Source of the DNA: an uncultured Lachnospiraceae bacterium
GTDB taxonomy: Bacteria; Bacillota; Clostridia; Lachnospirales; Lachnospiraceae
Length of the DNA: 64,000 nt
NCBI GenBank assembly: GCA_947384285.1
Contig: CANDGI010000011.1
Span: 1 to 64,000 of the forward strand
Reading direction: 5' to 3'
The notes below the pieces were generated by a model. It worked only from the letters and a program-made list of their open reading frames with translations, had not been told where the DNA came from and did not search any database. Positions 52,507-54,372 of the stretch are shown piece by piece. The translations under genes were made by a program, and so were the position numbers. Each line of letters opens with the position of its first letter. The stretch's first letter is position 1.

Positions 52507-52543
52507 CAGGCTCTTCTTACAGAGAAGAGCCTGCGCTTTTTTT
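52507..52543 (+). terminator. nadA terminator
   Basis: CAGGCTCTTCT (52507-52517) pairs with AGAAGAGCCTG (52523-52533), then seven T. It overlaps the 3' end of the convergent transporter gene. Confidence 0.85.
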
Positions 52544-53233
52544 CTTCCGTCCATGCAGATAGCGGGCCAGATAGATAAAAGGCGTGTCCGCGATGCTTGT
52601 CGCAACAAAAATAACATAGCTTGACATAGCAATAGAAATCAGGGTGGAAGTATGATAAGTGCCAAGAAATGCCCCCCAGGTAAATAAAATGGTATTTAAA
52701 AGCTGGGATACCATTGTGGAGCCGTTGTTGCGCAGCCACAAAAATTTTTTCGAGTCTCCGAATTTATTTTTGGTAAATGCCCACCATTTATGGTAAGCCC
52801 AAACATCGAAGAGCTGGACAATCACATACACCCCGATACCCACAGCCATAAGGCGTGGAGTATTGGAAAAAACAGTTCGGATGGCAGGGGAAGCAAAGTC
52901 ATTTTCATTTGGCTGGTACAGCATCCAGGACTGGCTGATAAGAATGAAAAGGACAGAAGTTGCAATCCCAAGGAAAACAGCCGTCTTTGCGGCTTTTTTC
53001 CCATACAGCTCGCTTAAAATATCTGTTACCAGGAAGGTAGAGGCAAATAAAATATTGCCCAGAGTCATTTCCATGCCGAAAGCATTTACGATAATCAGCA
53101 CTTCAATGTTTGCAGCAATGGTGGCCACTACAGTCCAAAGATAAAGCCCCTGTTCCCCGAATAGCCGGAATAAAAGAAGAACAGCGGAAAAAGCCAGAAA
53201 TAAGGATGCCAGCAAAAGAATTTCATTCTGCAT
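52517..53233 (-). CDS. Queuosine precursor transporter (YhhQ/VUT family)
   Basis: 238 residues with about six membrane helices. Family signatures: NILFASTFLVTDILSELYG, YQPNENDF-like loop, and NNGSTMVSQLLNTILF. YhhQ-type proteins import preQ0, preQ1 or queuine. GGAGGTG precedes ATG 53233, nine bases away. It follows a radical SAM gene with an 11-base overlap, and both lie behind a preQ1-I riboswitch, which makes the queuosine role strong. Confidence 0.92.
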   Translation of the reverse strand: MQNEILLLASLFLAFSAVLLLFRLFGEQGLYLWTVVATIAANIEVLIIVNAFGMEMTLGNILFASTFLVTDILSELYGKKAAKTAVFLGIATSVLFILISQSWMLYQPNENDFASPAIRTVFSNTPRLMAVGIGVYVIVQLFDVWAYHKWWAFTKNKFGDSKKFLWLRNNGSTMVSQLLNTILFTWGAFLGTYHTSTLISIAMSSYVIFVATSIADTPFIYLARYLHGRKKKSAGSSL

Positions 53234-53957
53234 GTTCTGCCGCACCTCCTACGCCAAAGGCAGTATTTTCCATCAAAATATCTACCCGGTCATTGTTTAT
53301 GTATTTTGGGTAAAGCTCCCTGGCAAAAATGCCAATGACCCCAGGGTCTGGCTGGATGGGCCGTCTGTTTTTCTGCATAATGTTGATGCAGACCCGTTCA
53401 AAGAAAGCAAGCCCCGTTCGGATGTCTTGTTCCATGCTTTCTGCTGTCTGGCCAGGGAGGCCTTGCAGCAGGCATACCTCATCAAAAAATTGAGCGATTT
53501 CCTCGGGGGAATCGGTATCTATGCCTTTGGATAGATAGCTTTCCCGGAACAGGGAATCAAAGGTTTCCACGCCGGTTTTTATTTTCAGTTCAATTCCATG
53601 AGCAGCAAAACGTCTGCGGAACGGGGCGGTTTCCTTACGGTGGCGCCAATGGCATTCAAAATGTATCTGCCCAATGCCGCGGCTTACGCAGGTCTTTGTA
53701 ATCAGGGCAAGGGTATCTTCATCCAGATCCACGAAGCTGCCGGAGTTGATGACCTCCAGTTTTCCGTGGATTCCAGTGACTTTTTCAAGCTGCTTTTGAT
53801 TCAGGGCAGAATTTGCCTTGCCATCCTGGGAAAAATCCAGATGATAGTCGCAGAAGCGGCAGCGTCTCCAGGAACAGCCGAATCCCCGCAGCATCACAAT
53901 TTCCCGGGGGTTTTTTTCGTTGATTACCGCATAGCGGCATGGGTTGAAATCTTCCAT
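53223..53957 (-). CDS. Radical SAM protein, probable queuine-salvage enzyme (QueL-like)
   Basis: 244 residues. The cluster motif is CSWRRCRFC (Cys-x4-Cys-x2-Cys, Cys28, Cys33, Cys36), a radical SAM variant. The rest is a partial TIM barrel. It is co-transcribed with a YhhQ-type transporter behind a preQ1-I riboswitch. Known work on Clostridioides difficile describes a radical SAM lyase, QueL, that frees queuine from queuosine 5'-phosphate, beside a YhhQ transporter. The match here is by class and context, not by alignment. ATG 53957 is preferred, since AAAGGA abuts the upstream ATG 53963. Confidence 0.75.
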   Translation of the reverse strand: MEDFNPCRYAVINEKNPREIVMLRGFGCSWRRCRFCDYHLDFSQDGKANSALNQKQLEKVTGIHGKLEVINSGSFVDLDEDTLALITKTCVSRGIGQIHFECHWRHRKETAPFRRRFAAHGIELKIKTGVETFDSLFRESYLSKGIDTDSPEEIAQFFDEVCLLQGLPGQTAESMEQDIRTGLAFFERVCINIMQKNRRPIQPDPGVIGIFARELYPKYINNDRVDILMENTAFGVGGAAEHAE

Positions 53958-54010
53958 TTTCATTCCTTTCTATCCATAAAAAATGAGCGCGCCAGAACGT
54001 GCCCACATAG

Positions 54011-54062
54011 AAAAAACGGTATTCTTCTGGCAGAGGAAGCCTGCGCAGAATCTTTCCGTTTT
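54011..54062 (-). terminator. Terminator of the preQ1 leader (expression platform)
   Basis: On the minus strand AACGG and ACCGTT pair at the base, with inner TTCTG/CAGAA and GCAG/CTGC stems; TTTTTT follows (54016-54011). It comes right after the aptamer. Confidence 0.75.
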
Positions 54063-54067
54063 CAAAT

Positions 54068-54107
54068 CCCTAGTTTTGTTTAGAGACAGGATGGTTACGA
54101 ACTGTCT
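54068..54107 (-). promoter_or_regulatory. preQ1-I riboswitch aptamer
   Basis: Minus-strand RNA. P1 is AGACAG (54107-54102) with CTGTCT (54089-54084). The loop is TTCGTAACCATC; the tail is CTAAACAAAACTAGGG (54083-54068), whose GG can pair with the CC of the loop to make the H-type pseudoknot. The A-rich AACAAAACxAGG tail and AACC loop match preQ1-I aptamers of Firmicutes. A terminator, a promoter upstream and a queuosine transporter downstream complete the case. Confidence 0.85.
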
Positions 54108-54128
54108 GATGTAATTGTATGCGTGGAT

Positions 54129-54157
54129 ATTCTAACACACTGGTTTTGGAATTGCAA
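54129..54157 (-). promoter_or_regulatory. Promoter of the queuosine-salvage operon
   Basis: Minus strand: TTGCAA (54157-54152), 17 bases, TAGAAT (54134-54129). It places the start about 15 bases before the aptamer. Confidence 0.75.
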
Positions 54158-54315: not shown

Positions 54316-54372
54316 ATTCTGGCATAAACAACAATGAAACATAATATGTTTCATTGTTGTTTATGCCAGAAT
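54316..54372. repeat. 57-nt near-perfect palindrome
   Basis: A 28-base arm (54316-54343), one central A, and its exact complement (54345-54372). The arms begin ATTCTGGCATAAACAACAAT. It sits 25 bases before the ATG of the unknown gene, after a TATAAT at about 54289. No T run. If transcribed it would form a very stable 28-bp hairpin. Confidence 0.85.

Follow-up and report, generated by a model that had tools for sequence, protein, structure and literature searches.

A predicted queuine-salvage operon joining a QueL homologue and a QPTR-family transporter behind a preQ1-I riboswitch in an uncultured Lachnospiraceae bacterium

In a 64,000-nucleotide stretch of the genome of an uncultured Lachnospiraceae bacterium (assembly GCA_947384285.1, contig CANDGI010000011.1, positions 1 to 64,000; hereafter the window), we have identified a two-gene operon preceded by a preQ1-I aptamer that very probably serves the salvage of queuine: a transporter of the QPTR family would import queuine, the radical SAM enzyme QueL would make preQ1 from it, and preQ1 would stop transcription of the operon. 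Eukaryotes are unable to make the micronutrient queuine and depend on the diet and on bacteria for it. A queuine-consuming enzyme combined with a dedicated importer marks a lineage of likely competitors for it. The host is a gut-type bacterium in which the operon probably makes a building block for tRNA modification out of imported queuine. Our reading draws on homology, gene order, conserved linkage, covariation in the P1 helix of the aptamer, terminator-like hairpins and the presence of TGT, QueA and QueH in the host genome, from which we infer that QueL acts on queuine, that the transporter carries it, and that the leader RNA binds preQ1 and thereby shuts off the operon. The features of the locus are the following:

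54129..54157, minus strand: promoter-like site TTGCAA-17-TAGAAT with TG ahead of the -10 element (extended -10), from a consensus scan
54064..54110, minus strand: preQ1-I aptamer with a type I pocket, long-P1 form (RF00522, our own model R1, covariation)
54107-54102 and 54089-54084, minus strand: the two P1 strands of the aptamer
54016..54059, minus strand: first terminator-like hairpin, then a U-run (-15.8 kcal/mol)
53983..54006, minus strand: second terminator-like hairpin, then a U-run (-9.9 kcal/mol)
53223..53957, minus strand: queL, homologue of a radical SAM queuine lyase, 244 aa (match to 6p78)
52517..53233, minus strand: QPTR/YhhQ-family queuosine precursor transporter, 238 aa (PF02592, TIGR00697)

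The start of the QPTR gene overlaps the end of queL by 11 bases. The open reading frame of the radical SAM protein extends over 53223-53963 and an in-frame ATG at 53963 is also a possible start; the ATG at 53957 is the likelier one, favoured by a Shine-Dalgarno-like GAAAGGA and by the starts of related genes. An earlier note on this DNA had placed the operon at 53223..54157, an interval that does contain the leader and queL but leaves most of the QPTR gene outside. The promoter proposed there, TTGCAA and TAGAAT separated by 17 bases, is present at 54157-54129 on the minus strand and has in addition the TG before the -10; since the 701-base region, counting both strands, has five promoter-like sites where shuffles average 1.4, the site by itself is weak evidence. 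Further upstream, in the interval between the promoter and a divergent ORF, positions 54316-54372 form a perfect inverted repeat whose two 28-base arms are separated by a single base and which is either a terminator or a small mobile palindrome.

Sequence comparison identifies the radical SAM protein as a homologue of QueL. Pfam returned no family for it at E 0.001, and its sole significant match in a phmmer search of the PDB sequences was 6p78, entitled "Queuine lyase" (E 3.2e-47, residues 8-237), to which it is identical at 94 of 230 aligned positions (41%). The fit to QueL that had been suggested from the sequence thus holds over nearly the full length. Less fortunate was the suggestion that its Cys-x4-Cys-x2-Cys motif is non-canonical and the reaction might differ: the motif (C28, C33, C36) is found in 6p78 and in all 39 sequences aligned with it, being invariant in 40 of 40 (26 clade-A proteins of the window type, nine of clade B, four further homologues and 6p78), and, as it is common to the crystallised protein, gives no reason to expect another reaction. 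Across the 40 sequences 28 positions are invariant, the three Cys included; clade A, clade B and 6p78 share 41 identical positions, all three cluster Cys among them, and six positions are fixed one way in clade A and another way in clade B and 6p78. In a maximum-likelihood tree 6p78 groups with nine proteins of the queK-operon type (99/97) and the 26 window-type proteins lie across a branch of moderate support (91/90); QueL group C is not a single clade in that tree. The chemistry of the window protein is most likely the known queuine lyase reaction. QueL was earlier described as a queuine-releasing lyase, which should be amended, as the enzyme turns queuine into preQ1 (PMC11477304, PMC11130926). 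In one relative QueL and a metallo-beta-lactamase fold (PF13483, E 2.1e-7) are encoded in a single 462-aa frame (L012:805-2190, the same as L120:2730-4115), and QPTR is the neighbouring gene; the fused part is perhaps a hydrolase that frees queuine and replaces QueK.

The second gene lies above the curated cut-offs of PF02592 (E 2.9e-43; 148.3 bits against 27.2) and TIGR00697 (161.6 bits against 50.95), in agreement with its earlier assignment to the YhhQ-type transporters; the E. coli-type model PRK11212, a preQ0/preQ1 equivalog, gave 26.4 bits, below its cut-off of 252. The E. coli QPTR carries preQ0/preQ1 and not queuine, and queuine is the substrate of the Chlamydia trachomatis QPTR (PMC11130926). 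In C. trachomatis the queuine transporter is accompanied by a TGT that uses queuine (PMC11130926, PMC11570991), whereas the TGT of our host is of the preQ1 type: its pocket reads GGLAVG, as does that of the preQ1-using E. coli TGT, queuine-using TGTs typically having GG[LS][AS]G (PMC11570991). With such a TGT, imported queuine should be useless unless converted by QueL. The transporter would accordingly bring in queuine, and perhaps also preQ1, QueL would cut queuine to preQ1, the preQ1-type TGT would put preQ1 into tRNA, and QueA and QueH would complete queuosine. A QPTR that imports queuine beside a preQ1-type TGT is a predicted role and the part of this scheme worth testing, and it provides, for anaerobes that have a TGT of this type, a queuine transporter candidate that can be tested.

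The host genome contains a single match each for TGT, QueA and QueH, all on other contigs, which accords with the earlier statement that neither tgt nor queA is in the window. Its assembly is 83% complete, so that absences, such as that of any PF01156 match for a QueK-type hydrolase, are provisional. Two apparent pathway members were discarded, namely a QueC match that is MnmA (22.4 bits against a QueC cut-off of 22; 445 bits for MnmA) and a QueF match that is FolE (27.1 bits, or 27.4 with neighbours, against 27.3; 288 bits for FolE).

QueL matches were found in 13 of 150 genomes of the family and in 63 of 392 genomes of the order. By identity to the window QueL, the order sample divides into a high group of 28 genomes, its own included, at 51% or more, and a low group of 34 genomes at 35-44%, plus one genome (G309) with broken pieces. 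In all 28 high-group genomes the coordinates place QPTR as the next same-strand match within about 150 bases of queL. At the level of loci, QPTR is next downstream on the same strand in 36 of 37 high-identity queL loci, the window included, and the same leader element precedes queL in 29 of the 37, one of the 29 being interrupted; these are counts of loci and not of independent lineages, and species may repeat. In one locus (L003) the QPTR gene runs off the contig. The only window-type queL locus of the 37 with no adjoining QPTR (L011 / L119:4485-5288) is also one in which no leader was found. A window-type queL-QPTR pair is carried by a metagenome-assembled genome labelled Treponema (L006:5995-7438), with no leader detected by Rfam or R1, and represents either horizontal transfer or a binning error.

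Of ten loci with lower-identity queL genes, nine hold upstream sequence, and all nine contain, like the C. difficile operon (PMC11477304), a QueK-like nucleoside hydrolase gene and a QrtT-type gene, the queries having come from one of the nine (L014) and the QrtT label resting on gene order and the published description, as Pfam has no family for the protein. In the clade nearest 6p78, queK operons were present in nine of the nine loci read. QueK-like matches better than 1e-21 occur in none of the 28 high-group genomes, although four of these do show weaker matches to nucleoside hydrolases; among the 34 other genomes with intact QueL, 18 have a QueK-like match at 5.2e-37 or better and 16 have no strong one. 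Within the low group QPTR precedes queL in four loci (L112, L113, L114 and L115; in L113 queT follows the pair), and coordinates put queL before QPTR in G153 and G237. The QPTR-queL pairing extends beyond a single clade.

The leader had been read as a preQ1-I riboswitch, with comparison to the Rfam model proposed as a check. RF00522 matches it over the complete model, positions 1-45, at 27.9 bits, with E 0.00069 when 301 bases were searched; the score is below the gathering score of 39 bits, which is a library cut-off and no structural definition, and a scan of the whole window at that cut-off returned no entry. Our own model R1 gave 69.7 bits at 54112-54063, the window sequence itself being among those from which R1 was built. 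Low RF00522 scores are usual among relatives: six of ten relatives' leaders scored 24.7-27.3 bits, those of G457, G466 and G501 scored 28.0-29.0 bits, all under 39, and the element is present in the leaders of L004 and L007 though RF00522 did not list them at E 3. Over the control genomes RF00522 matched only in Bacillus subtilis, although a type III preQ1 switch has been published for E. coli (PMC11625349). Compared with the Rfam consensus, the P1 of the window aptamer has one pair more and its L3 is longer by at least two bases, features that we associate with the low score. There is, then, a group of preQ1 switches that the Rfam threshold passes over.

The aptamer has the expected form, a P1 helix closing a 12-base loop, with an A-rich L3 and tail. 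It also carries the marks of type I (PMC11625349, PMC8752633), with UU after the P1 5' strand, UC before the P1 3' strand and CUA in the tail, and shares with the type I preQ1-I riboswitch all the pocket residues named in PMC8752633: by our own mapping onto its numbering, G5, U6, U7, C8, A12, U16, C17, C18, A30, C31 and U32 are all present. As every pocket residue of the type I crystal structure is there, two stacked preQ1 molecules are the ligand to be expected.

What settles the identity of the aptamer is covariation in P1 across the aligned leaders. The alignment, not fitted to structure, comprises 38 sequences (36 distinct): 28 before queL-QPTR, three before QPTR in genomes with no QueL match, and seven before queT, which was assigned by PF06177 in all seven; L025, whose aptamer is interrupted, was left out. 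In the 216 base-pair cells of the 6-bp P1, 99.1% are standard pairs, and pairing falls to 35-57% when the partner is shifted by 1-3 columns. Both-sided changes number 22 cells against 3.2 in shuffles, none of 500 shuffles being as high. Of the five covariation measures, one did not exceed chance: the number of P1 pairs with a double-sided change (four) was equalled in 52 of 500 shuffles. Nearly all of the variation comes from the seven queT leaders and from the outermost pair, and two of the six pairs are invariant.

Ahead of QPTR genes the helix hardly varies. The first leader search kept GACAG fixed with at most one mismatch, and one other search was looser. In a second scan four of the five P1 pairs were unconstrained, the loop-adjacent pair, the loop core and the tail being still fixed, and the result was the same, GACAG/CUGUC in 31 of 31 QPTR-linked leaders. 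R1 found this helix also in the leaders of three distant QPTR-queL operons, where the loop has 15 bases, and it is kept even where the QueL of the operon is only 35% identical to that of the window. Among the seven queT leaders, L079 has GACAG/CUGUC and the other six carry four different helices. The simplest reading of the fixed P1 is slow evolution of the switches of salvage operons, though the helix may have some function besides pairing. Leaders before queK-like genes have a fixed P1 too (ACUGG/CCAGU in six of six), so that invariance of P1 is no peculiarity of the window form.

As to how the switch might work, plentiful preQ1 would bind the type I pseudoknot of the leader, and transcription of the preQ1-bound leader would stop at a terminator ahead of queL. 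The terminator reported behind the aptamer was located, as a prediction, in the form of two hairpins (54059-54016 and 54006-53983), each with a U-run after it; a simple scan for unbroken stems with loops of 3-8 bases returned none on the minus strand of the 701-base region. In 28 of 29 queL leaders a U-run directly follows a hairpin whose energy is -6 kcal/mol or lower, and 28 of the 29 beat all ten of their mononucleotide shuffles. In six of the seven queT leaders, L079 being the exception, the aptamer tail runs into AAGGAG and a start codon. Taken together, the hairpins with U-runs and the AAGGAG tails suggest two switching modes, and one aptamer form seems to be used for termination before queL-QPTR and for masking of the ribosome site before queT. 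A shared antiterminator was sought through the energies of duplexes between aptamer and downstream sequence in 29 leaders and was rejected, the energies being hardly better than those of shuffles (mean z -0.54; 3 of 29 beyond -1.64). A predicted fold of the window leader that ignores pseudoknots lacks P1 and pairs part of its 3' strand with the tail; we give it no weight (z -1.89; 4 of 200 shuffles as good). Of the eight high-identity loci with no leader, two hold fewer than 150 bases upstream and six hold enough; in these six, no other preQ1-type aptamer was found at E up to 5 or by R1, which suggests loss or replacement of the switch. In the genome of L025, a stretch with no exact 8-base inverted repeat (L091:3216-3006, minus strand) has an insert of about 160 bases that splits the aptamer between P1 and the A-rich tail and should break the switch.

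Several other explanations bear on the function of the operon. It might mainly salvage preQ1 through a QPTR of little or no queuine activity, QueL being a side route for occasional queuine. We regard this as unlikely. In its favour, preQ1 is the ligand expected from the pocket residues, and in the order sample four genomes (G501, G368, G233 and G323) have a QPTR of this type (53% identity or more) but no QueL match; in three of them the QPTR follows the same leader (L087, L089 and L108). The transporter can therefore stand alone under the switch and may serve preQ1 uptake in those genomes. However, all 28 high-identity QueL genes adjoin QPTR and distant QueL genes are paired with it as well, a pattern which suggests that QueL receives its substrate from the transporter, and the window QPTR is not matched by the E. 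coli-type PRK11212. A shift of clade-A QueL to a different cleavage of some related substrate, for example the nucleoside queuosine or an epoxy or glycosylated form, appears improbable. The separate group of clade A in the tree, the six fixed residue differences, the lack of strong QueK-like matches in the high group (none of 28, against 18 of 34 other genomes) and the metallo-beta-lactamase fusion of one relative would all suit such a shift, but 41 residues remain fixed in both clades and 6p78, and import of the free base explains the missing QueK equally well. Hardly credible is an origin of the radical SAM protein in a family unrelated to queuosine, such as RaSEA: this was its only NCBIfam match, at 26.3 bits against a cut-off of 212, and RaSEA was rejected as its identity on this score; the match to 6p78 as well as the operon and riboswitch context also oppose it.

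A bolder form of the queuine-salvage reading holds that the operon belongs to a second branch of queuine scavenging, composed of a QueL clade and a queuine QPTR, with no nucleosidase and with its own aptamer subtype, in which the fixed P1 and longer L3 would have a role besides holding the pocket, for instance in letting one stacked site take queuine. We consider it very improbable as a whole; if one stacked site did take queuine, the switch would read substrate and product together.

Returning to queuine salvage as such, the locus looks distinct from the characterised operon in its lineage and in its pairing of enzyme, transporter and sensor, though its parts are of known kinds. The C. difficile queK-qrtT-queL operon likewise has a preQ1-I riboswitch in front and includes QueL (PMC11477304). 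In contrast, the window operon lacks a nucleosidase gene, and its transporter belongs to another family than the one described for C. difficile, neither queK nor qrtT being found beside its queL. C. difficile QueL is represented here by its description in the papers, and the sequence comparison was made with 6p78, which resembles the window protein over residues 8-237 and in the same CX4CX2C motif and differs from it in a sister-group position, at 41% identity, and in the QPTR partner gene. The window transporter is a member of the QPTR/YhhQ family by curated cut-offs and differs in its coupling to QueL. No description of a queL-QPTR operon was found in the open literature that we searched; the architecture may already be in print. 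The six queK-type leaders read are of the short form and pass the Rfam cut-off, whereas the window leader has a 6-bp P1 and a longer A-rich L3 and scores below it. Finally, the three leaders with 15-base loops from distant QPTR-queL operons (L112:3954-4006, L113:6468-6520 and L115:6317-6369) have ACCAGG in place of ACUAGG, and possibly form a further preQ1-I subtype.
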